This document shows, piece by piece, positions 11,001-55,352 of a stretch of 64,000 bases of DNA (position 1 is the stretch's first letter; the number at the start of each line of letters is the position of its first letter). Under the pieces are notes generated by a model. The model was given only the letters and a program-made list of their open reading frames with translations. It was not told where the DNA came from and made no database searches. Made by a program: the position numbers and the translations under genes. Origin of the DNA: an uncultured delta proteobacterium (GTDB lineage Bacteria; Desulfobacterota; Desulfobulbia; Desulfobulbales; Desulfocapsaceae); NCBI GenBank assembly GCA_903875445.1, contig CAIQWD010000107.1:1-64000 (forward strand), in the 5' to 3' direction.

Positions 11001-12062
11001 GGTCTCGACGATCAGCCCCCGATCGTTTTCGAGGATTTTGCCGATGGCCGGACCGGGGCCGATGAAGACCTGCATATGGCCGATGAGTTCGCCGGTGGTC
11101 GTTTGCAGCATGCCCCGATTCGATCCCAGGCTGAGAGAGGGGTAGAGCGCCTGCAGGTAGGCGAGGATCTCCTTGGTACCACCCTCGCAATCGTTTTGAT
11201 CGTGGAACAGGGAATCGAGGAGCATGCCGCTGCCGTTGCCGGGATAAAACTTATTTTCGGCATACCGCTGCAACAGCATCACCAGCGAATAGCCGTCGAT
11301 CTCCTTCGGCAGCCCCTCGCCAACCCTTTGCAGGCGCTGGTTGTATCTGGCCAGAGCCTCCTCCAGGGTAAAGGACGGTTGCTGCCCGAGGACCATCAGG
11401 GCGCGACTGAGATGAAAATATTCGGCCGAGATAATAAAGGTGGAAAAGGCCATGTGCAGACGGCCATCGGCGATATCCTCGCGCAGGGCCTTGAGAAACT
11501 CCGCCTCGGCATGCAGCATGGCGGCATAGCCCGAAGTCGCCGGGACGGCGTCCTGAAAGACATTGCCGAGGAGAACCGCCTCGGCGTCCTCCGCAACCTC
11601 TTGATCCATGCTTTTGTCCGGTTTGGCGGGAATGGTTGACCCGGAAAAGTGCGGCGGTGCAAGCCTGGCAACGGCGGTCTGCCGCACCAGCGATCGATAC
11701 CCGACTTTTTCGGTGATCGACAGGGGAATCAAAGACGACATGGCAATACTGTACTGAGGCAGCTCCCATGCCGACGCTTTATGGCGCGCTGCACGCTGAT
11801 AGGGAATTGCCGTAGGGTCGGCGGGCGGCGCAGTCATCTGTTTGCTCGGCGGCTCGGCCGCGGCTGGGACCGCATCGGGTGCGTGCCCTGCCCCGGGGCT
11901 TTCTTGCATCTGCCCGCTTTCTTGTTCTATATCTCCGACAAAGGGAAAAAAATAGTTGCCGGGTGGTAAAACGGCGGTCTTGATCAGGAGCAGATGCAGT
12001 ACTGCCGTGAGAGTGAAGGCAACGAACAAATCATGAAGGGTCCGGGTAGGTTTCACGATCAT
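8025..12062 (-). CDS. Giant membrane-anchored protein with a candidate transglutaminase-like core
   Basis: A 1345-residue protein I do not recognise as a named family. One hydrophobic helix (about residues 12-33) would anchor it with the bulk outside the cytoplasm, followed by a Pro/Ala-rich linker to about residue 80. Residues about 280-360 contain NDCEGGTKEILAYLQAL (Cys292), GHMQVFIGPG (His329) and GLIVETT (Glu353), an order and context resembling transglutaminase-like cysteine peptidases (Cys-His-Asp/Glu). The remaining 980 residues are mostly predicted helix with many Ala and Leu and no motif I can name. The frame is intact with no stop over 4 kb. It is convergent with the secreted transglutaminase-like gene, 42 bases apart. 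A structural or cell-envelope role is possible but unproven. Confidence 0.85.
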   Translation of the reverse strand: MIVKPTRTLHDLFVAFTLTAVLHLLLIKTAVLPPGNYFFPFVGDIEQESGQMQESPGAGHAPDAVPAAAEPPSKQMTAPPADPTAIPYQRAARHKASAWELPQYSIAMSSLIPLSITEKVGYRSLVRQTAVARLAPPHFSGSTIPAKPDKSMDQEVAEDAEAVLLGNVFQDAVPATSGYAAMLHAEAEFLKALREDIADGRLHMAFSTFIISAEYFHLSRALMVLGQQPSFTLEEALARYNQRLQRVGEGLPKEIDGYSLVMLLQRYAENKFYPGNGSGMLLDSLFHDQNDCEGGTKEILAYLQALYPSLSLGSNRGMLQTTTGELIGHMQVFIGPGPAIGKILENDRGLIVETTRVSLNSVLPYGSGDVFPLEDFVIRYYPEIVAGTPLAAGLPGGAAMGAEETKRIVGTSDSPLKMSYGASSTLLAEQFYDLANIRTQRIENEFLRSKIPSCNPRIDPTKIDRTNLFSNFVAIDRRQRKSLIGHYLADLQYWDNQIMPQWRQPEFLATYDDLAGSLLAAESDASGFIQVDAENSVPLRSLQSHGRFLKDLRDAAAQAKDPYAATGRQECAGRAVLDDRILGFLFKAPEGPGLFFLPAPDESLQWADLLGNILNDCLAVPAPDGERTLLGPLEEEVAGRQTSLRRELYTRAEVRNLSPFPLAGEKRLEATTAALTRLVSGSAENSEALGILARRQSPASTAGEPSVRETVAEVGRTGINGGLLWDIADFLGPGQVRSLFLDYGKRTDLRLSIHRAQELVAQLVTSLGGGEAMEFLAELQDATKDRPLQFAAAMNRAKLQGMPAAAISRLALDYLKSSEVYRAENLLALLQYGLLPEDAFSFMRARIGLLLAGLPKFADRQSDGEASGQVFGELVEMVQTLQQLPDKTSWQALHDGLGNSLLSDFSSKAVAGSVVKTAADWGLLFNKLTVLALLPEEVDWNEKDRKAERLSAAWLQQFIRFAADNPIGKLMLDPVTKIAGDQGIAAALGGIIPGQMASLDRLRSSTGQGAATLREVKAVVGDGNVVVRMLLSLGAAGVSRLSGLPAEQFAGNPKTKAEWYLEKLHRRVAPIVGGISKASPPAGNAAEQVPKVTAGTDPVVDFYLDDRVRESFAMLAYLQEGGDGGRGVRFRKTQDLAAIKDPTKLQVIEGERKITRQDMSLLTLALNPDNPPAAIRRALEETLAVTGKHLGMNLLDQGMRQYLFAPHFPYLTENDSGFFFSPETVEDLHNAADWGGRNDILLSSYLHFRNLPGQLPDWLRRTAMVRSELELKIIKKFEQQSFLPMILQCDSDQKELPDPLFRAKWAIRKPFGEDIFPGTLLLLRLGYLEITQAGEIVRTAKYAGG

Positions 12063-40778: not shown

Positions 40779-42797
40779 ATGAATTTTCATATCCCGGCAA
40801 TCCATGCTCCGATCGATGCCCAGTGGCTGAGCTTCGTCGATGGCAGCAGCAGCGATGTCGGCAGAGTCCGAGAGGTGATCCTCAGTTCCTGGAAGAGGTG
40901 CCATACGACCGGCGTCAACCCCTATGACAACAGTATCCACCCGCACCTGCAGGGCGAAGGACTGAACCGGGCCTTGAATCGTCGTGAACGCCTGCTGGCC
41001 GTAGCCCACCCCTTTATGACCGACCTCTACGCCATTGTCAGGGGCACCGGATTCGTGGTTGTCCTCACCAACGAGGACGGCTACATCCTCGAACTGTTCG
41101 GCGACGAGGGTGCAGACGAGACACCGATGACCAGCAATTTCTTCGTCGGCGCCTCCTGGCACGAACGGGACGCCGGCACCAACGCCATCGGCACCGCTTT
41201 AGAGGAGCAGAAGCCGGTCCAGGTGACCGGGCCGGAACACTACTGCCGCAAACACCACTGCCTCACCTGCTCGGCCGCGCCACTCTTCGACCCGGACGAC
41301 CGGGTGATCGGCATCCTCGATATCTCCGGCTCCTTCCAGGGTGCGCACCTGCATACCCTCGGCATGGTGGTGGCCGCAGCCAAAGCGATCAGTGCCCAGC
41401 TGCGTATTCGCATGAAAAATCATCAGCTGGCGGTGGCCAACAAAAAGCTGGTCAGCTTCTTCAATATGGTCTCGGACGGCCTGCTGATCCTCGACCAGGA
41501 CGGCACGATCACCGAACTGAATCCGGCGGCGGAACGGATCTTCGGTCGGATACGGTCGGAATTGACCGGCATCAAACTCGCACTGCTCCTCATCGGCGAC
41601 AGCCCGGAAAAAAGAAACGGTCTTCATCTGACCAAGTGGCAGGGAGAAAAGGAGATCCTCCTCGACACCGGCAACGGCCCCTGCCAGTGCCTGGCCTCCG
41701 CCGAATCCTTCGTCGACGAAGGGGAAACGGTGACCGGTAGCTTTATCACCCTCAGACCGATCAAGGCGGTGCAGAATTTAGTGCACCGCTATAGCGGCTA
41801 CTCCGCCTCCCTGCAATTCTCCGACATCATCGGCAACAGCCGGGAGATGCAGGAGGCAGTCGATCTCGCCAAGCTCTCGGCGCAGAGCGCCTCAAATGTC
41901 CTGTTGCAGGGGGAATCCGGCACCGGCAAGGAGATCTTCGCCCAGGCCATCCATAACCAGGGCTGCCGCCATGCCGCACCCTTCATCCCCCTCAATTGCG
42001 GCGCCATCCCCAGGGAACTGGTGGGCAGCGAACTGTTCGGCTATGAAGACGGGGCTTTTACCGGGGCATGCCGGGGCGGCAAGCCCGGCAAGTTCGAACT
42101 TGCCTCCGGCGGCACCCTCTTTCTCGACGAGATCGGCGACATGCCGCTTGAGCAGCAGGCGGTGTTGCTGCGAGTCATCCAGGAAAAGCGTATGACCCGC
42201 ATCGGCGGCATTAAGGTCATCCCGGTGGACGTCCGGTTGATCTGCGCCACCCATAAAAATCTTTTGGAGAAAGTGCGTGAGGGTACCTTCCGCCAGGATC
42301 TCTACTACCGCCTCAACGTCATGTCCATCACCATCCCGCCGCTCCGCGAACGGCTGGACGATATCCTGCCGCTGTTTCGATATTTTCTCGACAAACTGGG
42401 CCGCGACCGGGGGCACAAGCTGACGGTCGACCGCGATGTCATGCATTATCTCTACGCCTATCCCTGGCCGGGCAATGTCCGGGAATTGCAGAACGTCGTC
42501 GAACGAGCCACCAATCTGGCCGTGAGCGGTGCCGTCACCGTCCATCAACTGCCGACGGAGATTGTCGGCTGGCAGGATGGCATCCCATCGAATTCTAACG
42601 GTTTTCCGCCAGCCGCTGACATCCCGCAACCGGTCAATCGCCAGCAGAGAATAGGGCAACGCAAGGATCGGGAAAAGAACCAGCTCCTGCACCTGCTCAA
42701 TACCCACGACGGCAACATCACCCGGGTCGCGCGGGAACTTGGGGTCTCCCGCAAGACCATCTATAACCGGATGCATCGATTCGCCATTGCCCAATGA
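40779..42797 (+). CDS. Sigma-54-dependent activator (GAF-PAS-AAA+-HTH), AcoR-like
   Basis: A 672-residue enhancer-binding protein. The N-terminal sensor (about residues 20-210) ends with the GAF-like segment GASWHERDAGTNAIGTAL, a Cys-rich HYCRKHHCLTC and SAAPLFD, as in AcoR-type regulators of acetoin and aldehyde use. A PAS domain covers about 225-330. The AAA+ domain (about 345-575) has Walker A GESGTGKE near 378, the sigma-54 contact loop GAFTGA near 424 and Walker B LFLDEIGD. A Fis-type HTH ends it (VARELGVSRKTIYNRMHRF). It lies directly upstream of a sigma-54 promoter and mop, so it most likely controls that operon. The inducer is unknown; aldehydes are a fair guess. Confidence 0.95.
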   Translation: MNFHIPAIHAPIDAQWLSFVDGSSSDVGRVREVILSSWKRCHTTGVNPYDNSIHPHLQGEGLNRALNRRERLLAVAHPFMTDLYAIVRGTGFVVVLTNEDGYILELFGDEGADETPMTSNFFVGASWHERDAGTNAIGTALEEQKPVQVTGPEHYCRKHHCLTCSAAPLFDPDDRVIGILDISGSFQGAHLHTLGMVVAAAKAISAQLRIRMKNHQLAVANKKLVSFFNMVSDGLLILDQDGTITELNPAAERIFGRIRSELTGIKLALLLIGDSPEKRNGLHLTKWQGEKEILLDTGNGPCQCLASAESFVDEGETVTGSFITLRPIKAVQNLVHRYSGYSASLQFSDIIGNSREMQEAVDLAKLSAQSASNVLLQGESGTGKEIFAQAIHNQGCRHAAPFIPLNCGAIPRELVGSELFGYEDGAFTGACRGGKPGKFELASGGTLFLDEIGDMPLEQQAVLLRVIQEKRMTRIGGIKVIPVDVRLICATHKNLLEKVREGTFRQDLYYRLNVMSITIPPLRERLDDILPLFRYFLDKLGRDRGHKLTVDRDVMHYLYAYPWPGNVRELQNVVERATNLAVSGAVTVHQLPTEIVGWQDGIPSNSNGFPPAADIPQPVNRQQRIGQRKDREKNQLLHLLNTHDGNITRVARELGVSRKTIYNRMHRFAIAQ

Positions 42798-42985: not shown

Positions 42986-43000
42986 TGGCACACAATTTGC
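42986..43000 (+). promoter_or_regulatory. Sigma-54 (-24/-12) promoter of mop
   Basis: TGGCAC-N5-TTGC matches the sigma-54 consensus exactly, with GG and GC separated by ten bases. It lies 140 bases before the mop start and downstream of the paired inverted sites. Transcription would begin near 43012. Confidence 0.9.
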
Positions 43001-43139
43001 CTAACCCTCTCTACCAAGAAAGACAGTTCACGCAAGATTTCCTGCCGCGCACAGCGGTAAATAAGTCCGGAGACGTCCAGCCACTTCGCTGCTCGGAGGC
43101 TGGGTCACGTTCGCCGACACATCCCATGGAGGAATGGCT

Positions 43140-45854
43140 ATGATTAAAAAAGAGATAGTTGTCAACGGCATCCCGAGACGCCTGGTGGTTAGCGGCGAGG
43201 ACACCCTGGCCACGGTACTGCGGGCCAACCTGGGGCTGACCGGCACCAAGGTCGGCTGCGGCGAGGGCCAGTGCGGGGCCTGCAGCGTCCTGATCGACGG
43301 CAAGGTGACCCGCTCCTGCGCTACCAAGATGCGCCGGCTTGCCGACGGGGCTAAGATCACCACCATCGAGGGCATCGGCTGCCCCGACAACCTCCATCCC
43401 CTGCAGGTCGCCTGGATGGTGCACGGCGGCGCCCAGTGCGGCTTCTGCAGTCCCGGCTTCATCGTTTCGGCCAAGGGGCTCCTCGACACTAACCAAAAAC
43501 CGAGCCGTGACGAGGTACGTGACTGGTTCCAGAAACATCGCAACGCCTGCCGCTGCACCGGCTACAAGCAGCTGGTCGATGCGGTGCTGGATGCGGCCAA
43601 GGTGCTGCGCGGCGAGATGAGCCTTGATCAATTGTGCTTTAAGATCCCTGCGGACGGGCGGATCTGGGGCACCAAATTTCCCCGCCCATCGGCCCTTGCC
43701 AAGGTCACCGGTACCTGCGACTACGGCGCCGATCTCGGTTTGAAACTGCCGGAAGACACCTTGCAACTCGCCCTGGTCCAGGCGAAAGTCTCGCACGCCA
43801 AGATCAAATCCATCGACACCATGGAAGCGGCACTCATGCCCGGCGTGGTGAAGATCGTCACCCATAAGGACATAAAAGGCAAGAACCGCATCACCGGCCT
43901 GATCACCTTCCCAAGCAATAAAGGCGACGGCTGGGATCGACCGATCCTCTGCGATGAGAAGGTCTTTCAGTTCGGCGACGCCATCGCCATCGTCTGCGCC
44001 GCCACCAAAAAACAGGCCGAGGCGGCCGCCGAAAAGGTCAAGGTCGTGCTGGAGGAGCTACCCGCCTATATGAGCGCTCCGGCTGCCATGGCCGAGGACG
44101 CCATCGAGATCCATCCAGGTACCCCGAATATCTACTTCGAGCAGCGCATCGCCAAGGGCGAGGAGACCGCGCAGGTATTTGCTAAGGCCGCTGCCGTCGT
44201 CGAGGACGATTTCTATGTCGGTCGTCAACCGCATATGCCGATTGAGCCGGATGTCGGTTTTGCCTATATCAACGACGACAAGAAGTTGGTCATCCATTCC
44301 AAATCGATCGGCCTGCACCTGCACCTGTATATGATCGCTCCCGGACTCGGGGTTGAGCCGGAAAACCTGGTCATGGTGCAGAACCCGGCCGGCGGCACCT
44401 TCGGCTATAAGTTCAGCCCGACCATGGAGGCCCTGGTGGGCGCGGCGGCACTTGCCACCGGCCGGCCGGTCTTCCTCGGCTACAACTACTTCCAGCAGCA
44501 GACCTATACCGGCAAGCGTTCGCCGTTCTTCATCAATCTGAAACTGGCCGCCGACAAAGACGGCAAGCTGCTCGGCATGGAATCCGACTGGTCGGTCGAT
44601 CACGGCCCCTATTCGGAGTTCGGCGACCTCTTGACCCTGCGCGGCGCCCAATTCATCGGCTCCGGCTACGATATCGCCAGCATCCGCGGCATGGGCCGCA
44701 CCGTCTGCACCAACCACAGCTGGGGTTCGGCCTTCCGCGCCTACGGCTCGCCACAGTCGGAATTCGCCTCCGAGGTGCTGATGGACGAGTTGGCCGAAAA
44801 ACTCGGCATCGACCCCCTCGAATTGCGCTATAAAAACGTCTACCGGAAGGGATCAACCACCCCGACCGGTCAGATTCCCGAGGTCCTCAGCCTGCCCGAA
44901 CTCCTTGACACCCTGCGGCCCAAATACCAGGCGGCCTTGCAAAAGGCCAAGACGGCTTCCACCGCCGAGATGAAGCGCGGCGTCGGCATTGCTCTCGGCG
45001 TCTACGGCAGCGGTCTCGACGGCCCGGACAGCGCCGAGGTCGACGCCGAACTGAACGCCGACGGGACGGTATCGATATTCACCACCTGGCATGACCATGG
45101 CCAGGGCGCCGATATGGGGGCGCTGGCTACCGCCCACGAGGCCCTGCGGTCGCTCGGCATCGCCCCGGACAAGATCAAACTCTGCCTCAACGACACCGCC
45201 ATCTGCCCGAACGGCGGCCCCGCCGGCGGCAGCCGCTCACAGGTGGTTGTCGGTCAGGCGATCAAAGCCGCCTGCGACATGCTGATGGCCGGGATGAAAA
45301 AGGCCTCCGGCTACCGTAGTTTCGACGAAATGGTGGCCGAGAAGATCCCCACCAAGTACCGCGGCAAGTGGACCGCTCCGGCCAACGCCTGCGACGGCAA
45401 CGGCCAGGGAAGCCCCTTCGCCTGCTATATGTACGGCGTGTTTATGGCCGAAGTGGCAGTAAATACCGCGACCGGCGTTACCGCCGTCCTGAAGATGACG
45501 CTCATTGCCGATATCGGCAAAATCGCCAACCGGCTGGTGGTCGACGGCCAGATGTACGGCGGTATGGCGCAAGGAATCGGCCTTGCTCTTACCGAGGATT
45601 TCGAGGATATTAAGAAACACTCGACCTTGCTCGGTGCCGGTTTCCCGTATATCAAACAGATCCCCGACGAAATGGAACTGGTCTATGTCGAGAGTGATCG
45701 TCCCGACGGCCCGTTCGGCGCCTCCGGCGTCGGCGAACTGCCGCTGACCTGCCCGCATGCGGCGGTCATCAACGGTATCTACAACGCCTGCGGGGTGCGA
45801 ATCACCCGGCTGCCGGCCCTGCCTGAAAAGGTCCTGGCCGGATTGAAGAAGTAG
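43140..45854 (+). CDS. mop: Molybdenum aldehyde oxidoreductase (xanthine oxidase family)
   Basis: A 904-residue single-chain enzyme (D. gigas Mop is 907) that oxidises aldehydes to acids. The first 2Fe-2S cluster uses GCGEGQCGACS (near residue 40); the second uses CGFCSPG and CRCTGY (near 100-140). Molybdopterin-binding segments include GGTFGYKFSPT, RAYGSPQ and GGSRSQVV; the catalytic Glu lies in GASGVGELPLT near the end. By eye it follows D. gigas Mop, a molybdopterin-cytosine-dinucleotide enzyme, almost throughout. I chose the ATG at 43140 because GGAGG is best spaced there; an ATG two codons up is in frame. It is the first gene after the sigma-54 promoter. Confidence 0.97.
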   Translation: MIKKEIVVNGIPRRLVVSGEDTLATVLRANLGLTGTKVGCGEGQCGACSVLIDGKVTRSCATKMRRLADGAKITTIEGIGCPDNLHPLQVAWMVHGGAQCGFCSPGFIVSAKGLLDTNQKPSRDEVRDWFQKHRNACRCTGYKQLVDAVLDAAKVLRGEMSLDQLCFKIPADGRIWGTKFPRPSALAKVTGTCDYGADLGLKLPEDTLQLALVQAKVSHAKIKSIDTMEAALMPGVVKIVTHKDIKGKNRITGLITFPSNKGDGWDRPILCDEKVFQFGDAIAIVCAATKKQAEAAAEKVKVVLEELPAYMSAPAAMAEDAIEIHPGTPNIYFEQRIAKGEETAQVFAKAAAVVEDDFYVGRQPHMPIEPDVGFAYINDDKKLVIHSKSIGLHLHLYMIAPGLGVEPENLVMVQNPAGGTFGYKFSPTMEALVGAAALATGRPVFLGYNYFQQQTYTGKRSPFFINLKLAADKDGKLLGMESDWSVDHGPYSEFGDLLTLRGAQFIGSGYDIASIRGMGRTVCTNHSWGSAFRAYGSPQSEFASEVLMDELAEKLGIDPLELRYKNVYRKGSTTPTGQIPEVLSLPELLDTLRPKYQAALQKAKTASTAEMKRGVGIALGVYGSGLDGPDSAEVDAELNADGTVSIFTTWHDHGQGADMGALATAHEALRSLGIAPDKIKLCLNDTAICPNGGPAGGSRSQVVVGQAIKAACDMLMAGMKKASGYRSFDEMVAEKIPTKYRGKWTAPANACDGNGQGSPFACYMYGVFMAEVAVNTATGVTAVLKMTLIADIGKIANRLVVDGQMYGGMAQGIGLALTEDFEDIKKHSTLLGAGFPYIKQIPDEMELVYVESDRPDGPFGASGVGELPLTCPHAAVINGIYNACGVRITRLPALPEKVLAGLKK

Positions 45855-45908: not shown

Positions 45909-48170
45909 ATGGAACAACAGGAACTGCGCCACTGGGAAGCCCGATGTATTCAGGAAGAGCCTCCGCTCTGTCGTGCCGGCTGTCCGCTCGGGGTCGATGG
46001 CCGGAGCTTTGCCCGCACCATGGCCCGGGAGGATCTGGCCGGGGCTCGGGCGATCCTCGAAAAGACCATGCCGCTTATCGGCATTGTCGGCCGTCTCTGC
46101 GAGGCGCCATGTGAGCAGTATTGTCTGCGGCGGGAGTTCGGAGGCTCCATCGCCCTGGGCGGTCTGGAGCGCCTCTGCCTGTCCTCGGTTCCGGGGCGGG
46201 GCAAGATTCTTCGCCTGCCGGCGCGCCCCAAAAAAGTACGGATCCTCGGTTCCGGCCCGAGCAGTCTGACCGTCGCTTTCGATCTTGCCAAAAAAGGTTA
46301 TCCGGTAGTCCTTCTACACCTGGCGGATGGCCCGGGGGCCTGGTTGCGGGACCTGCCCGAATCGGCACTTCCGACCTCGGTATTGCAGGAGGAACTGGCG
46401 CGTCTGGTCACCCTCGGGGTGACATTCCAGCCGGTTGCCGACCTGGATGCGTCACTTTATGCCACCGATGCGGGCGACGCCTGCTATATCGGCCAGGATG
46501 ATGCCCTGACTCCCGACCTGAGAACCATGCTCGAAGCTCCTGACCCGATGACCTTTGCCCTCGCCGGGCCCGGACTTTTCACCGGTGGTCTTTGTTCCGT
46601 AGGCCACCCTTACCGGCTGATCACCGATGTGTCCCAGGGCCGGGAGGCAGCGGTCTCCATCGACCGCTATCTGCAAGGCGCCTCGCTCACCGCCAGCCGT
46701 GTCCCCCTGCGGCATGGGCAAACCGATCTCTTCACCGAAACCAAAGATGTTGCTGTGAAGATGCGGATTGTCGCCGCCGACCCCGCCAATTTCACCCGGC
46801 AGGAAGCAGTTGCCGAGGCCGACCGCTGTCTCGACTGTCAATGCCTGGAATGTGTCAAACACTGCGTCTATCTGGCGGAATACGGCGCCTATCCGAAGAC
46901 CTACGCCCGGCGGGTATATAACAATTCGGCAATCGTCAAGGGCATCCATCAGGCCAACCGCTTCATCAACAGCTGTGCGCTCTGCGGCCAATGCGAGACC
47001 CTTTGCCCGAAGAATTTCTCCATGGCCGAACTCTGTCTTGACGCTCGCCGCCTGATGGTCCGGGAAAATCGCATGCCCGCCTCGGCCCATTGGTTCGCCC
47101 TGCTGGAGATGCGGGCCGCCGCGAGTGAAACCGCCCTGGTTCGTCATGCACCCGATAAGACCTCAAGTCAGGTGATTTTTTTCCCCGGTTGCCAGCTGGC
47201 CGGCATCCGGCCTGACCAAACCTTACGCCTCTATGCCCGCCTCCGCGAACTGCAAGCCGAAACCGGCATCTGGCTCGACTGTTGCGGCGCCCCAGCTCAT
47301 TGGGCCGGCCGGGAAGAGGAGTTCTCCCAGTTTCGTGATCGCCTGGCAGGAATCTGGGACAGCATGGGTCGTCCCCAGGTGTTGACCGCCTGTTCGACCT
47401 GCCTGAAGATTTTCCGCGAGCACCTGCCGGAAATTACCGTTGCCTCGGTATGGACACTACCTCTTACGACCGGTGCCAAAGGCGTTTCCCGCCCTGCCCT
47501 GGCCCTTACCGATCCGTGTACCTCCCGCCACGACCCTGCGACCCGTCAGGCGGTGCGCGCCCTCCTTACGGCCATGGGCCAGGAACTCGCTCCGCTTGCC
47601 ATGTCCGGAGAACTCACCGAATGCTGTGGTTTCGGCGGTCTGATGGAAGGCGCCGACCCTGCCCTTGCCCGTAAGGTGACGGCGGCACGGGTGGCACAAG
47701 CGAACGGCGTTTTTTTGACCTATTGCGCCATGTGCCGAGACCAGCTGGCCAAGACCGGCAAGCCGGTACTGCATCTCCTCGATCTCCTTTTCGCCGACAC
47801 CACCCATCCGGCAGACGAAGCCCCGGCCTCGCTTTCAGCCCGCAGAGCGGGTAGACGCCTCTTGAAGGCTAAGTCCCTGGAAGAACTTCCGACGGACGAG
47901 CCGTGGGAGAAACTGTCTCTGACCATTGCCGCGCCGGTGGCGGCCCTTCTTGAGGAACGGCGCATCCTTGTCGACGATATCCGCCAGGTGCTTTTTCATG
48001 CCGCCGGTGGGGGTGCCTCCTTCGAACACGGTGCCGATGGCCGCAGACTCGCCTCGGCGCGCCTTGGCGAGGTCACCTTTTGGGTGGAATACCGGCTGGT
48101 GAGTGAATCGTATCACATCGAGCGGTGTTGGAGCCATCGTATGACCATCGGCGGGGGAGGCGAATCATGA
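45909..48170 (+). CDS. Pyridine-nucleotide/Fe-S oxidoreductase with CCG domains
   Basis: A 753-residue soluble multidomain protein. A GltD-like N-terminal Cys region (CRAGCP near 21, CEAPCEQYC near 63) leads to a Rossmann-type segment (RILGSGPSSL near 110), two ferredoxin-like clusters (CLDCQCLECVKHC near 307; CALCGQCETLCP near 356) and a heterodisulfide-reductase-like end with CCGAPAHW, CSTCLKI and CCGFGG motifs. It could move electrons between NAD(P)H and Mop or a thiol partner. The central part is shorter than in GltD, so FAD binding is uncertain. It is the first gene after the mop hairpin and shares ATGA with the next gene. A similar protein lies beside Mop in Desulfovibrio as I recall. 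Confidence 0.9.
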   Translation: MEQQELRHWEARCIQEEPPLCRAGCPLGVDGRSFARTMAREDLAGARAILEKTMPLIGIVGRLCEAPCEQYCLRREFGGSIALGGLERLCLSSVPGRGKILRLPARPKKVRILGSGPSSLTVAFDLAKKGYPVVLLHLADGPGAWLRDLPESALPTSVLQEELARLVTLGVTFQPVADLDASLYATDAGDACYIGQDDALTPDLRTMLEAPDPMTFALAGPGLFTGGLCSVGHPYRLITDVSQGREAAVSIDRYLQGASLTASRVPLRHGQTDLFTETKDVAVKMRIVAADPANFTRQEAVAEADRCLDCQCLECVKHCVYLAEYGAYPKTYARRVYNNSAIVKGIHQANRFINSCALCGQCETLCPKNFSMAELCLDARRLMVRENRMPASAHWFALLEMRAAASETALVRHAPDKTSSQVIFFPGCQLAGIRPDQTLRLYARLRELQAETGIWLDCCGAPAHWAGREEEFSQFRDRLAGIWDSMGRPQVLTACSTCLKIFREHLPEITVASVWTLPLTTGAKGVSRPALALTDPCTSRHDPATRQAVRALLTAMGQELAPLAMSGELTECCGFGGLMEGADPALARKVTAARVAQANGVFLTYCAMCRDQLAKTGKPVLHLLDLLFADTTHPADEAPASLSARRAGRRLLKAKSLEELPTDEPWEKLSLTIAAPVAALLEERRILVDDIRQVLFHAAGGGASFEHGADGRRLASARLGEVTFWVEYRLVSESYHIERCWSHRMTIGGGGES

Positions 48171-48376
48171 GTCTTCGTTTTCTGCCGCAGGATATGAACT
48201 GGATCTGCCGGCCCTGCCGGGAGCCCCTGCAACCGGGCATGGTTGAGCTGCACTATATGGGCAATGTCTTCAAAGTCGAGTTGCCGGTCTGCCCAAAATG
48301 CGGAGCCGTCCTGATTGCCGAAGAGTTGGCCTTGGGGCGGATGCTCGAAGTGGAGCAGCTCCTCGAAGACAAATGA
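48167..48376 (+). CDS. Small zinc-ribbon-like redox protein
   Basis: A 69-residue protein with two Cys pairs, CRPC (near residue 11) and CPKCG (near 40), the layout of a rubredoxin-like or zinc-ribbon knuckle. It carries no signal. It overlaps its neighbours by ATGA at both ends, so it is made in fixed ratio with the oxidoreductase and methyltransferase. I recall a matching small protein (DVU_1557) near Mop in Desulfovibrio vulgaris, which I could not check. A metal- or cluster-binding electron carrier or scaffold is the likely role. Confidence 0.85.
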   Translation: MSLRFLPQDMNWICRPCREPLQPGMVELHYMGNVFKVELPVCPKCGAVLIAEELALGRMLEVEQLLEDK

Positions 48377-49068
48377 AACCGCTCTATCTGTCCACTGCCG
48401 TCCGCGCGGGGCTTGGGTCCGCGTTGCGGCCCGGCGGGACGACGCTGACCAAACGCATTCTCGACCTCGCCGCCCCGACCGCGAACAGCATGGTTGTCGA
48501 TGCCGGTTGCGGATCGGGGGCAAGTATGGAACTGCTTAAAGATTACGGGATTCGAAGGATTGTCGGCTTCGATATCGATCCGCAGCTTGCCGGTGAGGCT
48601 CGACAAAAAGGCCTCGACATCGCCCTGGCCGATCTGGCCCGGCTGCCTCTGCCGGATAGCTGCCTCGACCTGGTACTCTGCGAGTGCGTGTGGAATCTCA
48701 CCGATAAAAAAAGGGTGACGTCCGAGTTTGCCAGGGTCCTGCGACCGGGCGGCTACCTTGCCCTGACCGATATTTATAGCCGTACCGGCAAAACCGCAAC
48801 ATGGCCCCTGCCCTGCTGTTTTGCCGGGGCAACCGATCTGGCAACGGTTACGAATCTCTTTACCGAGGCCGGATTTACCGTGGAACTACTCGAAGACCAC
48901 AGCCCCTTGCTTAACAAGACCGCCGCCGAGTTCGTCTTCACCCACGGCTCCCTGCAAGGTTTCTGGCAGGCGGTTACCGGCGATGCACACCTTGCAACCG
49001 CCGCCTGTTCGGCTGCCGCCGCCAGCCGTCCCGGGCTTTTTCTCCTTCTTGCGAGGCGTAGAGAATAG
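48373..49068 (+). CDS. Class I SAM-dependent methyltransferase
   Basis: A 231-residue methyltransferase. VVDAGCGSGASMELL near residues 41-55 is the SAM-binding motif I; FDIDP follows as motif II, and DLVLCECVWNLTDKKRV with RVLRPGGYLAL as motifs IV-VI. The fold resembles UbiE/COQ5-type enzymes. The start at 48373 overlaps the redox protein stop (ATGA). Its substrate is unknown; the neighbouring radical SAM/ligase fusion and Cys protein suggest that it methylates a cofactor precursor or peptide within this pathway. Confidence 0.93.
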   Translation: MKPLYLSTAVRAGLGSALRPGGTTLTKRILDLAAPTANSMVVDAGCGSGASMELLKDYGIRRIVGFDIDPQLAGEARQKGLDIALADLARLPLPDSCLDLVLCECVWNLTDKKRVTSEFARVLRPGGYLALTDIYSRTGKTATWPLPCCFAGATDLATVTNLFTEAGFTVELLEDHSPLLNKTAAEFVFTHGSLQGFWQAVTGDAHLATAACSAAAASRPGLFLLLARRRE

Positions 49069-49070
49069 TC

Positions 49071-49523
49071 ATGAACGAGTATGACCTTGATATCCTGAAG
49101 CTTGCCCGTCAGGGCTATTGTTGCAGTCAGATTGTTCTTCACCTGGCCCTCGATCTGCAGGGGCAAGAGAATCCCGGCCTTATTCGGGCTATGTCCGGGC
49201 TATGCCACGGCTTTTTTGCCGGCAAGGGGGGGGCATGCGGCGCCCTGACCGGGGCGGCCTGCCTCCTGGCCTATTATGCCGGCAAAGGCCGAGCGGACGA
49301 GGAGGCGCACGAACGGCTGCCGCTGATGCAGAGCGAGCTTGCCGAGTGGTTTGAGGACTACGCCACAACCCGTTTCGGCGGCATCAACTGCAGCGATATC
49401 GTCAGTGACGGTCGGCCTGATACCTCTGTCTGCGGTGGTCTGGTCTCCGAATGTTACGGTCGGGCCATGACCATCCTCGTCGAAAACGGTTTCGATCCGG
49501 CTGGCGACATCCATGACGACTGA
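49071..49523 (+). CDS. C_GCAxxG_C_C family protein
   Basis: A 150-residue protein with the conserved Cys pattern of this family: GYCCSQ near residue 16, GACGALTG near 58, INCSD near 106 and VCGG near 121. The family is common in anaerobes and of unknown function; the spacing suggests metal or cluster binding. Its ATG lies two bases after the methyltransferase stop, and its end overlaps the radical SAM gene by 11 bases, so translation is coupled. It may be a substrate or scaffold of the neighbouring enzymes. Confidence 0.9.
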   Translation: MNEYDLDILKLARQGYCCSQIVLHLALDLQGQENPGLIRAMSGLCHGFFAGKGGACGALTGAACLLAYYAGKGRADEEAHERLPLMQSELAEWFEDYATTRFGGINCSDIVSDGRPDTSVCGGLVSECYGRAMTILVENGFDPAGDIHDD

Positions 49524-52176
49524 AGATTTGGGGGAGGTGGAAAGCGTCTGCCCGGAGTGTCTCGGCCGCCTGACCGGCCGCCTGGTCCGCGATGACGACT
49601 GCGTCCGACTGAAAAAACGCTGTCCGCAGCACGGTCCCTTTTCGGCGGTCGTGTGGCGGGGCGAGCCTGCCTTTGCCTCCTGGTATCGCCCGAAACTGCC
49701 CTATGACGGCGGCAATCGCCTGGTCAAGGACAAGGGTTGTCCGTTTGACTGTGGCCTGTGCGAGAACCATGAACAACGCACCTGCACGGCCCTGGTGGAA
49801 ATCACCTCGCGCTGCAATCTCCATTGCCCGGTCTGCTTCGCCGACAGCGGTGCCGGCGGTGCCGATCCGGATTTGCAGGCCTTGGCCCGGATGTTTACCG
49901 GTATCCTGGCCGATACCGGCAGTTGCAATCTCCAACTCTCCGGCGGCGAGCCAACCCTGCGGACCGACCTAACGGAGATCGTCCGAGCGGCAGAAAGGGC
50001 GGGATTCACCTTTATTCAACTGAACAGCAACGGCCTGAGGTTTGCCCAAGACCCGGACCTTGCCCGGCGATTGCGGGGCGAGGGGCTCTCGTCGGTCTTT
50101 CTCCAGTTCGACGGGCTGGACGACCGGGTGTTTACCACTCTTCGCGGTCGTGCGCTGTTTGCCGAGAAATGCCGGTCCATCGACAATTTGGCGGAAGCCG
50201 GCCTCGGCATCGTCCTGGTGCCGACGCTGGTGCGAGGTGTCAATACCGACCAGCTATGGCAGATAGTGCGCTTTGCCCTTGCCAGGCAACCGGCCGTACG
50301 CGGCGTGCATTTCCAGCCGATGTGCTATTTCGGCAGGTTTCCGCAAAGTTTTACCCCCGACCACGTAACCCTGCCGGAAATCATGCAGGCCCTCGAAGAC
50401 CAGAGTGAGGGGCGGGTAAAGACCGGCGATTTCCGGCCGCCGGGCTGCGAACACGCCCTTTGCTCCTTTTCCGCCAAATACCTGGTGGAGAAGGATGGCG
50501 GACTGACCCGACTTGGAGGCGGCGCCTGCGACTGCACCCCCACACCGGCCGAGGACGGGGCGCGGGTCGCCATTGCCGCCACCGCCCGCCGCTGGGCCGC
50601 CATTCCCATGTACGCTCAGCCGGTTACGCCCCAACCGGCGGACGAACTCGACCTCTTCCTGCAACGCGCCCGCAGTCACACCTTCGCCCTCTCGGCCATG
50701 GCCTTCCAGGACGCATGGAACCTCAGCCTCGAACGCCTGCGCGGCTGCTGCATCCATGTCGCACGCCCTGACGGTCGTCTCATCCCCTTTTGCAGCTTCA
50801 ACCTCACCGCCCGTGACGGTCGGGCCTTGCACCGGCCGCGTCCGGCCGAGAAAGTAAGCTACCCGACGCCGGTCGATGCGCTCTCCGCCCGGCGACTGGG
50901 GATTGCCGGACCGCTTTCCCGGGAAAAGATCGAGCAGGCGCAGATGGCCGCCCTCAGGCAAACCCTGCAGCATGCCACCGCCAACAGCCTGCTGTATCGG
51001 CAGCGCCTGGCCGGCATCGATATCCGGGGAATCCAAACCCTCGCCGACCTGGGCCGCCTGCCTCTCCTCACAAGCGTTGAGCTTGCTGCCGATGGCTTGC
51101 GTCTGCTCGCCGTCTCGCAAAGCCGGGTGGCCCGTATTATTACCATGCAGACCTCGGGCAGCACCGGACCCGCCAAACGCTTATGCTTTACGGCGGCGGA
51201 CCTGGCCGCGACCTTGGAGTTTTTTTTCGAGGGCATGTCGAGTCTCATCGGCACAGAGGACCGGGTGTTGGTGCTCCTGCCCTTTGCCCAGCCGGATTCG
51301 GTGGGCGATTTGCTGCTCCGCGCCCTCCGCGACGGCGGCATTAAGGCTAGCGGTCTTTGGCCGCCGACGGAAGAGACAGCCGGAACCATTCGCCACGACC
51401 GGCCGACCTGCCTGGTCGGCCTGCCGCAACACCTTCTCGCCCTGGCCGAGGAGATCGGGCCGGGATTGGTGCACTCGATGCTGCTCTGCTCCGATTACGC
51501 CGCCCCCGCCCTGCGCCGGCGGATTGAGGCCGCCTGCGGCTGCGCCACCTTTCTCCATTATGGCGCCACCGAGACCGGCCTCGGCGGCGGAGTGGAATGC
51601 GCAGCCCATAATGGTTGTCACCTCCGCGAGTCGGATCTTCTCGTTGAGATCGTCGAACCGCAGACTGGCAGCCCATTGCCGGACGGTGAAATCGGCGAGG
51701 TGGTGATCACTACCCTTGATCGCGAGGCCATGCCGCTTATCCGCTACCGGACCGGCGACAGCGCCCGGCTCGACCGCTCACCCTGCGCCTGCGGCGGACT
51801 GACCGCCCGGCTGGTCGATATTCGGGGGCGTCTTGACGGCTGCCTTCTGCCGGTCGGCGGCATGCTGCACAGCCAGGATCTGGATGATCATCTTTACCTC
51901 ATCCCCGGCCTGCTCGACTACCGGATCATCCTCGATAAAGATGGTCCCGACCGGCTGCATGCGGAGTTGCTGGCGACAGGTGATGAGATCGCCATTCTCG
52001 ACCACTTCCGCCAAAAACTTTTGCTGATTCCGGCGATCCGTGCTAGTCTCGCCGATGGCCGATTGCTCCTCGGAACGATTCGCCGGGTGACGGGTTTTGC
52101 CGCCACCCATACCATCAAACGAACCATCCTCGACCTGCGCACGAAAGGAGAAAGATATGCGGCATGTTCTCGATAA
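49513..52176 (+). CDS. Radical SAM enzyme fused to an AMP-dependent ligase
   Basis: An 887-residue fusion. The first 60 residues hold a Cys-rich entry (CPECL near 13, CPQHG near 36); the radical SAM core follows with the cluster motif CNLHCPVC (Cys101, 105, 108) and LSGGEPTLR as the SAM-binding GGE strand; extra Cys lie in CDCTPT and CEHALCS near residues 315-340. From about residue 470 the protein is a phenylacetate-CoA-ligase-like adenylate-forming domain: TSGSTGPAKR (near 547), GATETGLGG and YRTGD. I recall separate genes for the two halves beside Mop in Desulfovibrio, so the fusion would link a radical reaction to carboxylate activation. Product unknown. Confidence 0.92.
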   Translation: MTTEDLGEVESVCPECLGRLTGRLVRDDDCVRLKKRCPQHGPFSAVVWRGEPAFASWYRPKLPYDGGNRLVKDKGCPFDCGLCENHEQRTCTALVEITSRCNLHCPVCFADSGAGGADPDLQALARMFTGILADTGSCNLQLSGGEPTLRTDLTEIVRAAERAGFTFIQLNSNGLRFAQDPDLARRLRGEGLSSVFLQFDGLDDRVFTTLRGRALFAEKCRSIDNLAEAGLGIVLVPTLVRGVNTDQLWQIVRFALARQPAVRGVHFQPMCYFGRFPQSFTPDHVTLPEIMQALEDQSEGRVKTGDFRPPGCEHALCSFSAKYLVEKDGGLTRLGGGACDCTPTPAEDGARVAIAATARRWAAIPMYAQPVTPQPADELDLFLQRARSHTFALSAMAFQDAWNLSLERLRGCCIHVARPDGRLIPFCSFNLTARDGRALHRPRPAEKVSYPTPVDALSARRLGIAGPLSREKIEQAQMAALRQTLQHATANSLLYRQRLAGIDIRGIQTLADLGRLPLLTSVELAADGLRLLAVSQSRVARIITMQTSGSTGPAKRLCFTAADLAATLEFFFEGMSSLIGTEDRVLVLLPFAQPDSVGDLLLRALRDGGIKASGLWPPTEETAGTIRHDRPTCLVGLPQHLLALAEEIGPGLVHSMLLCSDYAAPALRRRIEAACGCATFLHYGATETGLGGGVECAAHNGCHLRESDLLVEIVEPQTGSPLPDGEIGEVVITTLDREAMPLIRYRTGDSARLDRSPCACGGLTARLVDIRGRLDGCLLPVGGMLHSQDLDDHLYLIPGLLDYRIILDKDGPDRLHAELLATGDEIAILDHFRQKLLLIPAIRASLADGRLLLGTIRRVTGFAATHTIKRTILDLRTKGERYAACSR

Positions 52177-53170
52177 ACTTACCCGCACCCTGCAACTCAA
52201 ACAGCCTGCGGTTCTTTGCGGCATTGTCCGCAACTCCGGCTCGGCACCTAGGACCTCGGGCGCCCGGATGGTGGTGGTAAGCGACGGCAGCATCGCCGGC
52301 AGCGTCGGCGGCGGCGCCCTTGAGGGCGCTTGTCAGGCCAAGGCCCGGGAACTTTTCCGGGGCCCGGCGACCTTTGCCGAGCTGGACTTTCAACTGACTG
52401 CCGCCTCCGCCGCCGAAGAGGGCATGGCCTGCGGCGGCTCGGCCACGGTACTGCTGCAACGCCTCGAACCGGAGATGCTGCCGTTTATAGAGCGCTTGCA
52501 AAAAGAGTACCTTGGTGGCCAACGACCAATGCTGTTGACCATTTTGCCTAAAAAGGAGGAGCCGCCCCGCCTGCTCCTCCTCGATTCGCAGCAAAATCCC
52601 GAGGTGGCGACCGACCTGCGCCTGGAGATCACCCGCAAGGGCCGACGGGCGCCCTTTCTTCTCGACCACCGGGGGCGGGAGATCTTCGTCGAACCGCTGG
52701 TCCATCCCGGCACCGTCCACCTGGCCGGAGCCGGACACGTTGCTCTCGCCGTCGCCGAACTAGCGGCCTTCGTCGACTTTGAGGTCGTGGTTATGGACGA
52801 CCGGCGGGAATTCGCCAACCCGGAACGATATCCAAAGGCGAGGGAAGTGCGTGTTCTCAATTCTTTTGCCGCCTGCCTAACCGGCCTCGGCCCGGACGAC
52901 TACGTGGTCATCGTCACCCGCGGTCATCTCCACGACCGCGAGGTCCTCGCCCAGGCCCTCAGCACCAATGCCGGTTATATCGGCATGATCGGCAGCCGGA
53001 GAAAGCGGGCGGCGGTCTATGAATCGCTGCGCGGCGAAGGGGTCACCGACTCGGAACTGGCCCGCTGTCACTGCCCCATTGGTCTCGCCATCGACGCCGA
53101 CACCCCGGAGGAGATTGCCCTCAGCATCGTCGCCGAGATGGTCCAGGTCCGCGCCAAAATGGCAACATGA
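52157..53170 (+). CDS. XdhC/CoxI family molybdenum cofactor maturation protein
   Basis: A 337-residue protein with the two XdhC parts: an N-terminal XdhC/CoxI domain (AVLCGIVRNSGSAPRTSG; GGALEGACQ; CGGSATVLLQ) and a Rossmann domain (HLAGAGHVALAVAELA near residues 190-205; IGSRRKRA; CPIGLAIDADTPEEIA). XdhC proteins bind molybdenum cofactor and help insert the sulfurated form into xanthine-oxidase-family enzymes. GGAG before the ATG at 52157 fixes the start within the end of the ligase gene (20-base overlap). It shares ATGA with the next gene. It should serve Mop. Confidence 0.95.
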   Translation: MRHVLDKLTRTLQLKQPAVLCGIVRNSGSAPRTSGARMVVVSDGSIAGSVGGGALEGACQAKARELFRGPATFAELDFQLTAASAAEEGMACGGSATVLLQRLEPEMLPFIERLQKEYLGGQRPMLLTILPKKEEPPRLLLLDSQQNPEVATDLRLEITRKGRRAPFLLDHRGREIFVEPLVHPGTVHLAGAGHVALAVAELAAFVDFEVVVMDDRREFANPERYPKAREVRVLNSFAACLTGLGPDDYVVIVTRGHLHDREVLAQALSTNAGYIGMIGSRRKRAAVYESLRGEGVTDSELARCHCPIGLAIDADTPEEIALSIVAEMVQVRAKMAT

Positions 53171-54279
53171 AGCTTGCGGCCATCCTTCTCGCCGCCGGCC
53201 TTTCCTCACGAATGGGGGATTTCAAACCCCTTATGCGGCTTGGCGGCGAGACCCTCCTTGCCCACTTAGCCGCCCTCTTTCGCCAGGCAAAAGTTCGTCG
53301 GATCATGGTGGTGACCGGCCACCGTCATGAAGAGGTGGAGGTCGAGGCCCGGCGCCTGGGTCTTACCTCTGTGCATAACCCGGATTATGCCCGGGGCATG
53401 TACACCTCAATTCGGACAGGGGTACAAGGCCTTCCCAAGGTTGACGGCTTTTTCCTCCTGCCCGTGGATATCCCCCTCGTCCGACCGGCGACCCTTGCCG
53501 CCCTCACCGCCGCCTTCGACGGGCAAATGGCGATCCTGCCCCGTTTCACCGAAAAAAACGGCCATCCGCCCCTTCTCCCGTCTCATCTGATCCCTGCCAT
53601 CCTCGACTACGACGGCCAGGACGGTCTGCAGGGCTTGCTCGCAGGCTGCAAGTCAAAAGAGGTGAAGGAATTGCCGGTCTGGGACAAAGGCGTACTGCTT
53701 GATGCCGACACGCCGGAGGACTTCGCCGTTCTTACCGCGCGTATGGCCCGCTTGCCAATTGGCGAACGGGTCGAGGCCCTAGCCCTGGCAGAACTCCTGA
53801 TGCCGGAGAAAGGGCGGGTGCACGGTCTGGCCGTTGCCCGGGTCGCCGAAGCCCTCGGCCTGGAGCTGGGTCGCAACGGTTGCAAACTCGATACCGACCT
53901 CCTCTATAACAGCGCCCTCCTCCACGACGTCGCCAAGGGCCGGACACGACACGAGGCGGCCGGGGCCAAACTCCTCGCGGGCCTCGGCCTCGGCCGGCTG
54001 GCGGAGGTTGTCGCCGTCCACCGCGATGCCCCGCCACCCTCTACCGGCATCCTCTCGGAAAAGGAGGTGGTCTGCCTCGCCGATAAACTGGTCAGGGGAC
54101 AGTACCGCGTTCCGGTGCGCCGGCGCTTTACGGAAAAACTGGAACTGTACGCCGGCAACAAGGCGGCCTGCCGCGCCATCAGGAGGCGCATGCATAACGC
54201 CCTTGCCCTGCAGGAGATGGTGGAGCTGGCGACGGGAAAGACAATCGAGGCAATCCTTGGCAATGGGCAGAACCAATGA
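53167..54279 (+). CDS. MocA-like nucleotidyltransferase fused to an HD-like domain
   Basis: A 370-residue protein. Residues 1-195 form a MobA/MocA-type nucleotidyltransferase: AAILLAAGLSSRMG with the metal-binding region near 95-100 (PVDIPLV). MocA adds CMP to molybdopterin to make the cytosine dinucleotide form used by D. gigas Mop. Residues about 205-320 are HD-like: LLYNSALLHDVAKGRTRHEAAGAKLL, with a later AVHRDAPPPS. The pairing could couple cofactor synthesis with a phosphohydrolase step. ATGA overlaps link it to xdhC-like and phosphatase genes. I recall a matching fused NTP transferase (DVU_1551 type), unchecked. Confidence 0.92.
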   Translation: MKLAAILLAAGLSSRMGDFKPLMRLGGETLLAHLAALFRQAKVRRIMVVTGHRHEEVEVEARRLGLTSVHNPDYARGMYTSIRTGVQGLPKVDGFFLLPVDIPLVRPATLAALTAAFDGQMAILPRFTEKNGHPPLLPSHLIPAILDYDGQDGLQGLLAGCKSKEVKELPVWDKGVLLDADTPEDFAVLTARMARLPIGERVEALALAELLMPEKGRVHGLAVARVAEALGLELGRNGCKLDTDLLYNSALLHDVAKGRTRHEAAGAKLLAGLGLGRLAEVVAVHRDAPPPSTGILSEKEVVCLADKLVRGQYRVPVRRRFTEKLELYAGNKAACRAIRRRMHNALALQEMVELATGKTIEAILGNGQNQ

Positions 54280-54899
54280 GCACCCTGTACCTCATCCGCC
54301 ACGGGGAGATAACCGCCCGCTCAGAACAGCACCGTTTTATCGGCCAACTGGATCTCCCCTTAAGCGAACACGGCCGACAACAGATGCGCGGCTTCGCCTG
54401 CCACCCCACCCTGCAAACCGTTGAAAAAGTACTTACCAGCCCGCTTATCCGATGCCGGGAAAGCGCCGCCATTCTCACGGCCCACCTGGGATGCAGCGCC
54501 GCCGAAGTAGTCCCTGATCTCGCCGAGATTAATCTGGGGGAGTGGGAAGGCTTGACCGTCGCCGAGGTCAAGGATCGTTTTCCTGGAGAATATGCCGCGA
54601 GGGGCAACGACCTCGCCGGTTTCCGGCCCGTAGGCGGCGAAAGCTTTGCCGACGTCCTTCGCCGCTCCTGGCCGGTATTCGAACGTGCAGCCGGCTGTGG
54701 GGTCGATCGTGTTGCCCTGGTGTCTCATGCCGGGGTGAATCGGGTGCTTCTTTGCAGGATCCTCGGTATGCCGCTCAACAACCTGTTTCGTCTGCAACAA
54801 GACTATGCCTGCTGCAATATTATCCACTGCGACGGGGCAAGATACCGGCTGGAATGTCTCAACCTTCGTCCCGAATGTTGTTCTTCCCATACCGGTTAA
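54276..54899 (+). CDS. Histidine phosphatase family protein
   Basis: A 207-residue phosphoglycerate-mutase-like enzyme. LIRHGEI (catalytic His near residue 8) and LVSHAGVNR (second catalytic His near residue 151) form the active site, with RCRESA and the acidic ELxLGEWEG-type segment (INLGEWEG) between. The family includes alpha-ribazole phosphatase and broad phosphatases. As the last gene of the coupled chain, it may remove a phosphate in cofactor maturation. It shares ATGA with the nucleotidyltransferase gene. Confidence 0.93.
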   Translation: MSTLYLIRHGEITARSEQHRFIGQLDLPLSEHGRQQMRGFACHPTLQTVEKVLTSPLIRCRESAAILTAHLGCSAAEVVPDLAEINLGEWEGLTVAEVKDRFPGEYAARGNDLAGFRPVGGESFADVLRRSWPVFERAAGCGVDRVALVSHAGVNRVLLCRILGMPLNNLFRLQQDYACCNIIHCDGARYRLECLNLRPECCSSHTG

Positions 54900-54950: not shown

Positions 54951-55352
54951 ATGCGTGGCGCAGGGGGTACGGATGGCGGCGTTGGCCGTTTTTTCCTCGG
55001 ATTTATCATGATGATCGGCGGCGGATATCTCTTTCTTAGCAACATTCACGTCACAACAGGTTTTGGTTTCGGTTATGCTATCTGGAATGTCTGGGGCATC
55101 GGTATTACCAGTGGGATGGTGCTCATTCCCTTTATCTTCGGGGTAGGCATCATTTTCTACAACGGCAGCAACCCCCTCGGCTGGATCCTCGCCATCGCCT
55201 CCTTGGCCATGCTCGGTTTTGGGGTCATCAGCCAGATGCACTTTCAGTTTAATAACATGTCAGCCTTTGACCTGATAACGATTCTCGTCCTTTTGGTCGG
55301 CGGCATCGGCCTTTTTCTCAGTTCTTTACGCTCAAGCGGCAGAAGTTTTTAA
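54951..55352 (+). CDS. Small unknown membrane protein with four helices
   Basis: A 133-residue hydrophobic protein with helices near residues 14-31, 50-70, 75-95 and 105-125 and little else. It is Gly-rich at the start (RGAGGTDGGVGRF). I do not recognise a family. GGGGG nine bases before the ATG at 54951 is a usable ribosome site. It is 51 bases after the phosphatase gene and 22 before the hydantoinase-family gene, so it could belong to either transcript. Confidence 0.75.
   Translation: MRGAGGTDGGVGRFFLGFIMMIGGGYLFLSNIHVTTGFGFGYAIWNVWGIGITSGMVLIPFIFGVGIIFYNGSNPLGWILAIASLAMLGFGVISQMHFQFNNMSAFDLITILVLLVGGIGLFLSSLRSSGRSF

Follow-up and report, generated by a model that had tools for sequence, protein, structure and literature searches.

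A TrsS radical SAM protein fused to a DVU_1553-family ligase in the Mop operon of an uncultured Desulfocapsaceae bacterium

The radical S-adenosylmethionine (SAM) enzyme Tes (GDGT-MAS, MJ0619; Protein Data Bank (PDB) entries 7tol and 7tom) carries a rubredoxin-like site, an N-terminal cluster held by three cysteines and a histidine, a CX3CX2C motif, a labile Met439 and Tyr459, and its reaction passes through a bond between a substrate carbon and a cluster sulfur, as set out in the accessible part of PMC9433317. PaaK (2y27, 4r1l) is a phenylacetate–coenzyme A (CoA) ligase. In a 64,000-nucleotide stretch of contig CAIQWD010000107.1 from an uncultured Desulfocapsaceae bacterium (the whole stretch is called the window below), relatives of these two enzymes are joined in a single gene, at positions 49513–52176 of the plus strand, within an operon for the molybdopterin-dependent aldehyde oxidoreductase Mop. 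Its first half belongs to TrsS, the radical SAM (seleno)protein family NF045646, and its second half to the DVU_1553 family of AMP-dependent CoA ligases (NF045666).

Both families had been named before, and only the fusion is new within the literature searched, which yielded no earlier report of a TrsS–ligase fusion and lacked one paper likely to discuss TrsS. TrsS is a family name without a function, and the window member differs in being joined to the product of the next gene; DVU_1553 is mostly a separate gene, usually right behind trsS, whereas in the window it is fused. A review, in its accessible part, lists TrsS as a selenoprotein. Neither a function for TrsS and its partners nor a paper on DVU1553–1557 was found in the literature searched, where DVU1559 figures in two papers, and DVU1551–1554 are not named in the accessible main text of a D. 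vulgaris mutant-fitness paper. TrsS and its partners often adjoin genes for Mop; the D. gigas enzyme served as structural model for xanthine oxidase, according to the accessible part of PMC10223205.

The trsS–ligase fusion and its split counterparts

The list of open reading frames for the window gives an uninterrupted frame of 887 residues at 49513–52176. Family membership was assigned where the whole-protein score exceeded the curated NCBIfam cut-off. The TrsS half (residues 1–441, 49513–50835, plus strand) matches NF045646 over residues 8–441 with 622.1 bits (cut-off 490), covering positions 2–441 of the 441 in the model, and the ligase half (residues 452–887, 50866–52176, plus strand), which is PaaK-like with a C-terminal lid, matches NF045666 over residues 452–774 with 395.3 bits (cut-off 300), covering all 331 model positions (1–331). 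The radical SAM motif is formed by C101, C105 and C108, and the ligase half carries TSGSTG, YGATE and RYRTGD. The AlphaFold model (alignment of 69 sequences) contains two well-folded domains, with a mean predicted local distance difference test score (pLDDT) of 92.1 and a predicted template modelling score (pTM) of 0.73. Between them lies a linker of about residues 442–451 (50836–50865, plus strand), loose at residues 445–450, where pLDDT falls below 50. With VIA-align 2, residues 2–444 superpose on Tes 7tom (Z 47.1, root-mean-square deviation (rmsd) 1.9 over 392 residues) and residues 453–877 on PaaK1 2y27_A (Z 38.5, rmsd 3.1 over 400 residues). The initial annotation had described one 887-residue frame joining a CxxxCxxC radical SAM core to a ligase-like domain, and the NCBIfam matches, the motifs and the AlphaFold model confirm this. 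Both halves are complete and keep their signature residues. No in-frame ATG, GTG or TTG was found between codons 439 and 478 of the gene, and no further copy of either half above the cut-offs was found in the window's own genome.

The fusion is genuine and recurs in other genomes (G and L numbers denote our genomes and loci). In a sample of the phylum, TrsS is matched at 1e-100 in 51 of 395 genomes; the window's match is the single one whose open frame exceeds 700 residues. A sample of the family has TrsS in 16 of 93 genomes, five of which (the window's genome, G439, G452, G453 and G464) hold both halves in a single fused frame of 878–1078 residues. The four fusions outside the window exceed both family cut-offs and are 57–69% identical to the window protein. 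An assembly error or frameshift joining two genes is rejected, since the same fusion stands in these four further genomes.

For the comparison of fused and split forms, 147 TrsS loci were reduced to 125 by merging near-identical cores, and to 113 rows by removing 12 archaeal or Tes-like outgroup rows; the TrsS sequences of G464 and L083 (Desulfobulbaceae bacterium SZUA-575) collapse as duplicates. Five of the 113 rows are fused; in 92 the ligase follows TrsS directly in the same direction, and in 4 it lies farther off. The remaining 12 rows show no ligase match within the stretch examined, and two of these do have a ligase, in G131 about 1.7 kb downstream and in G075 on another contig. The halves are thus mostly adjacent separate genes elsewhere, and the proposal that the gene is a natural Rosetta-stone fusion holds. 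Gene order around TrsS is conserved among relatives, with the same operon partners in most. Among the matches listed, members of the Thermodesulfobacteriota, Bacillota (e.g. Sporomusa and Acetobacterium), Chloroflexota and some Alphaproteobacteria carry TrsS and its partners; the named collection was limited to the top 80 of 379 confirmed matches.

In a tree of 124 rows (one row was too short and was left out) all five fused rows lie within one supported clade of 12 rows, which also has split forms (Desulfogranum marinum, L082, among them). Two changes are required on the best trees to explain the fusions, and a single fused clade is not rejected (approximately unbiased test, p-AU 0.187). In L071, from the window's genus, trsS and the ligase gene share one frame with a stop codon between them. 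Each of the four fused genes outside the window has an in-frame start codon near the beginning of the ligase part (GTG in L065, L066 and L068, TTG in L070), from which a separate ligase could still be translated.

Active-site residues compared with Tes and PaaK

The closest solved relative of the TrsS half is Tes (270 bits), with which it has in common the fold, the rubredoxin-like site, the N-terminal cluster site and the labile methionine. The protein does not reach the cut-off of the Tes family NF045702, scoring 321.9 bits against 450. The TrsS columns equivalent to the Tes sites were taken from a pairwise alignment and partly counted by hand. The cysteine and histidine ligand columns of the rubredoxin-like, N-terminal auxiliary and radical SAM sites are kept in 112–113 of the 113 TrsS rows, and the labile-methionine column holds Met in all 107 rows with a residue. 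Cys317, Cys412 and Cys427, candidate ligands of a C-terminal cluster, are kept in 112, 108 and 107 of the 113 rows, the rest being gaps. The position of Tes Tyr459 is occupied by V (72), E (15), I (11), T (5), Q (2), C, S and A (1 each) or a gap (5), so that none of the 108 rows with a residue has Tyr; the window protein has Val. Six of the 12 outgroup rows have the Tyr, and six have the Met. Cys91 is invariant in TrsS (113 of 113 rows) vs 6 of 12 outgroup rows. These comparisons suggest that TrsS is Tes-like and not Tes, and they mark a group of Tes-fold enzymes expected, by sequence, to do something other than make tetraethers. By analogy with Tes, TrsS could share the step in which substrate carbon bonds to a cluster sulfur.

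The ligase half has the PaaK fold and ATP-site motifs. It scores 114 bits against the PaaK cut-off of 646, however, and its lid carries K[RK]x[ILVF] where PaaK has GKA. The RTGD-type and YGxTE-type motifs are each present in 96 of 101 ligase relatives. Our P-loop pattern was overly strict and matched 87 of 101, which is not a count of losses. In adenylate-forming (ANL) ligases the lid lysine is catalytic. The window lid carries IKRTIL, and K[RK]x[ILVF] lies near the C-terminus in 75 of the 80 lid-bearing relatives, in some as GKR, with GKA or GKG in none of the 80. PaaK-like paralogues of the window's genome have GKA, SKG or GKR, and the motif of the ligase half is one residue out of register with GKA. 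Loss of the lid lysine was considered and dropped once K[RK]x[ILVF] had been found in 75 of 80. The lysine is therefore probably kept in an altered sequence setting, and retention of a lid-lysine-like motif strengthens the case for an activation step; adenylation of a carboxylate by the ligase half is plausible. EhpF (3hgv, 3l2k), which we take to be a lid-less relative, aligns to residues 459–774 of the fusion protein.

Association with Mop and the proposed role

Above the cut-offs, 43 of the 395 phylum genomes have TrsS, 43 have DVU_1553 and 41 have both; the remaining two TrsS genomes, G219 and G262, have a DVU_1553 match below its cut-off. Mop exceeds its cut-off in 34 of the 395, and 32 of these 34 have TrsS above cut-off. 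Of the other two, G330 has a sub-cut-off TrsS match at a contig end and G241 has none at 1e-100. Among 17 genomes with only a sub-cut-off Mop-like match, TrsS is above cut-off in 3, including G104 (partial Mop). TrsS is not confined to Mop genomes: 11 of the 43 TrsS genomes have no Mop above cut-off, including G104 and also G306 and G358, which have sub-cut-off Mop-like genes. These counts indicate that Mop nearly always comes with TrsS and that TrsS sometimes comes without Mop.

Gene context was counted for 98 of the 113 rows (short stretches were dropped), 55 of them with long flanks. Mop is present at 46 of these 55 loci and absent from the stretch at 9. Of the 9 Mop-free loci, 8 have the methyltransferase, 8 the ligase and 7 dicluster parts, and none has XdhC or the nucleoside triphosphate (NTP) transferase. 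Both of the latter are missing from 7 of the 46 Mop loci. Four of the 9 Mop-free loci (G131, G152, G306 and G342) sit in genomes without Mop above cut-off. Loci of this kind suggest a way of testing the pathway independently of molybdenum.

The G498 Mop agrees with PDB chain 1sij at every one of the 206 residues queried; the sequence of 1sij equals that of 1vlb, the D. gigas enzyme, and we therefore take G498 to be D. gigas. Its gene order (Mop, dicluster protein, methyltransferase, C-GCAxxG-C-C protein, TrsS, ligase, XdhC, phosphatase) is like that of the window, but trsS and the ligase gene are split, each above its cut-off, and an NTP transferase match is absent from the stretch. This agrees with the initial description of the halves as separate genes near Mop in Desulfovibrio. 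As isolated, D. gigas Mop contains an ordinary pyranopterin cytidine dinucleotide with oxo replacing the sulfido ligand, according to the accessible part of PMC3877041. Given this ordinary cofactor and the split operon in the genome assigned to the same organism, a lasting change to the Mop cofactor by TrsS is unlikely; TrsS may have a transient role on Mop.

We think it somewhat probable that the fusion joins adjacent partners of one conserved pathway, in which TrsS and the ligase would catalyse two steps on a shared intermediate. The conserved set would consist of the methyltransferase, TrsS, DVU_1553, the dicluster/CCG redox protein and usually the C-GCAxxG-C-C protein. TrsS, through its Tes-like metal sites, would abstract a hydrogen atom from an unactivated carbon, and the resulting carbon radical might be trapped or guided by a C-terminal 4Fe-4S cluster with a labile methionine ligand. 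The PaaK-like half would bind ATP and the carboxylate of that intermediate to form an adenylate, while lid-less ligase relatives may just bind the intermediate or pass it on. The fused protein would retain the intermediate between both sites. What the pathway makes is most likely a small carrier or cofactor for dicluster redox work and, where present, for Mop, and not a visible alteration of the Mop molybdenum cofactor. It is likely that both halves act as two steps in a single cofactor-type pathway, with TrsS as its hub, and the mechanism as a whole is one we infer with moderate confidence. The initial annotation had pointed to a modification or cofactor pathway in a Mop operon; the setting does look like a maturation or cofactor pathway, and the tie to Mop is only partial in view of the Mop-free loci and the ordinary D. 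gigas cofactor. That the fusion occurs in some relatives of sulfate-reducing bacteria suggests that both proteins serve the same job; it points out which two proteins to study jointly and offers a single-chain protein for expression.

Several observations weigh against this shared-intermediate pathway. Fusions indicate joint work of two proteins, not action on one molecule. The relative orientation of the two domains in the model is uncertain, as the pTM indicates. Since Tyr never occupies the Tyr459 position in TrsS, the Tes reaction is not simply transferable, and 16 of 96 ligase relatives have fewer than 100 residues after RTGD, which leaves little or no lid. The presence of TrsS in nearly all Mop genomes suits a Mop-serving role, and genome-wide absence of Mop above cut-off is established for only the four Mop-free loci named above; another, L124, shares its TrsS sequence with G340, which has Mop on another contig.

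A role of the TrsS–ligase pair as dedicated Mop maturase, modifying Mop or its cofactor or aiding insertion together with XdhC and the NTP transferase, is an alternative that we regard as rather unlikely. It is favoured by the 32 of 34 Mop genomes with TrsS, with the sub-cut-off match of G330 at a contig end, by the scarcity of TrsS where Mop-like matches stay below cut-off (3 of 17) and by an NTP transferase–TrsS fusion (L097). The 9 of 55 well-flanked loci that lack Mop, XdhC and the NTP transferase together speak against it, compared with only 7 of 46 Mop loci lacking the latter two, as does the absence of Mop above cut-off from the genomes of four of those nine (L124/G340, by contrast, has Mop). 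Plain pyranopterin cytidine dinucleotide in the D. gigas enzyme is hard to reconcile with a maturase that alters the cofactor, and two loci, L177 (G241) and L178 (G372), carry Mop and the ligase with no TrsS between them. It is quite unlikely that the fusion arose neutrally, as an accident among tightly packed genes, and means nothing beyond co-expression. The shared frame with a stop in L071, a fused state that perhaps arose twice or was lost, and the GTG or TTG codons that could still start a separate ligase are what such an accident might leave. The fusion has, on the other hand, been kept with both halves complete in five genomes, four of them at 57–69% identity to the window protein, and the stretch between codons 439 and 478 of the window gene offers no in-frame start.

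Tes being the best solved relative (270 bits, Z 47.1), with the named ligand sets and the methionine kept, a bacterial Tes-type lipid enzyme also comes into consideration: TrsS would join alkyl chains and the ligase would supply activated fatty acids, giving membrane-spanning or otherwise modified lipids. A lipid role has been proposed for bacterial Tes homologues in the accessible part of PMC8941075. We consider this very unlikely for TrsS, which misses the Tes cut-off (321.9 of 450) and has no Tyr at the Tyr459 equivalent in any of 108 rows, and the operon matches include no lipid-synthesis family. A bolder version of the cofactor pathway makes TrsS the hub of a multi-enzyme assembly that produces a new redox cofactor in anaerobes, a reading that arises because fusions in different lineages link TrsS to as many as four partners (ligase, NTP transferase, methyltransferase and a DUF5714 Cys-rich domain). 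By the Tes-type linking of a substrate carbon to cluster sulfur, TrsS would then introduce sulfur or a new C–C bond at an unactivated carbon of an acid that the ligase half holds and activates. The CCG-type (HdrB-like) dicluster protein would use the product, as would Mop where present. In this specific form the proposal is improbable.

The surrounding operon and unusual loci

The neighbours named at the outset, Mop, a methyltransferase and a C_GCAxxG_C_C protein, are all present and run in the same direction as the fusion gene. On the plus strand the operon begins with Mop (43134–45854; NF045668, 1683 bits, cut-off 1100), whose best PDB match is 1sij. It is followed by the pyridine nucleotide-disulfide oxidoreductase/dicluster protein with CCG domains (45909–48170; NF045663, 887 bits, cut-off 530; PF02754), the DVU_1556 family class I methyltransferase (48298–49068; NF045667, 208 bits, cut-off 155) and the DVU_1555 family C-GCAxxG-C-C protein (49071–49523; NF045669, 178 bits, cut-off 103), whose gene is overlapped by the fusion gene by 11 nucleotides. 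Behind the fusion gene, and in the same order and direction, come the XdhC family aldehyde oxidoreductase maturation factor (52157–53170; NF045664, 392 bits, cut-off 350), the DVU_1551 family NTP transferase, MocA-like with an HD domain (53167–54279; NF045665, 401 bits, cut-off 315; PF01966), and a histidine phosphatase resembling alpha-ribazole phosphatase (54276–54899; PF00300, 175 bits). By our reading XdhC likely starts at the ATG at 52157 behind a GGAG, which would overlap the end of the fusion gene by 20 nucleotides. The phosphatase scores 149 bits with TIGR03162, below the cut-off of 162.9; the other seven operon genes are above their NCBIfam cut-offs.

Upstream on the same strand lies a gene for a sigma-54-dependent transcriptional activator with GAF, PAS, AAA and Fis helix-turn-helix domains (40779–42797; PF00158, 229 bits), and a possible sigma-54 (-24/-12) promoter with one mismatch to the pattern precedes mop (42986–43001, plus strand). 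When up to two mismatches are allowed, the window contains 28 such sites vs 30.3 expected from shuffles, which is no enrichment, so it is the position of the site that makes it a candidate.

The dicluster protein ends in a C-terminal domain of about 90 residues, and this domain is a standalone gene of 84–92 amino acids in several Mop-free loci (e.g. L162:5274–5549). The window's genome has a second Mop-like gene (G000:C68:15680–18325; 771 bits, below cut-off). Behind the phosphatase gene a 133-amino-acid open frame (54951–55352) has no Pfam or NCBIfam match, and farther away a 1345-amino-acid open frame on the minus strand (8025–12062) has no Pfam match at 1e-10.

Other TrsS fusions exist. L097:3897–6395, from a metagenome-assembled genome, joins TrsS to the NTP transferase with both parts above their cut-offs; L128:9980–11956 (Ohessyouella blattaphilus) joins TrsS above cut-off to part of a methyltransferase (blastp, 77 bits); and L108:9965–12142 (Desulfosporosinus BRH_c37) is a TrsS–DUF5714 fusion, whose C-terminus looks like the one on TrsS in L151:6303–8369. 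In L095:5624–7390 the NTP transferase and the histidine phosphatase share one 588-amino-acid frame (blastp). L177 and L178 also have the C-GCAxxG-C-C gene beside Mop and the ligase gene. In L161 (G039) the TrsS frame is interrupted by TAA and TAG before the C-terminal cluster motif; selenocysteine was considered and rejected, and since the stops are TAA and TAG this TrsS looks broken, not selenium-coding. Among 16 Mop-free or odd loci, no neighbour beyond the core genes and the 90-residue domain is common to more than four. TRAP-transport-like genes are common to 3–4 of them, and CoA-dehydratase-like and activator genes occur in 3 by our reading, for which only some genes of L167 were tested (a corrinoid protein and RACo).

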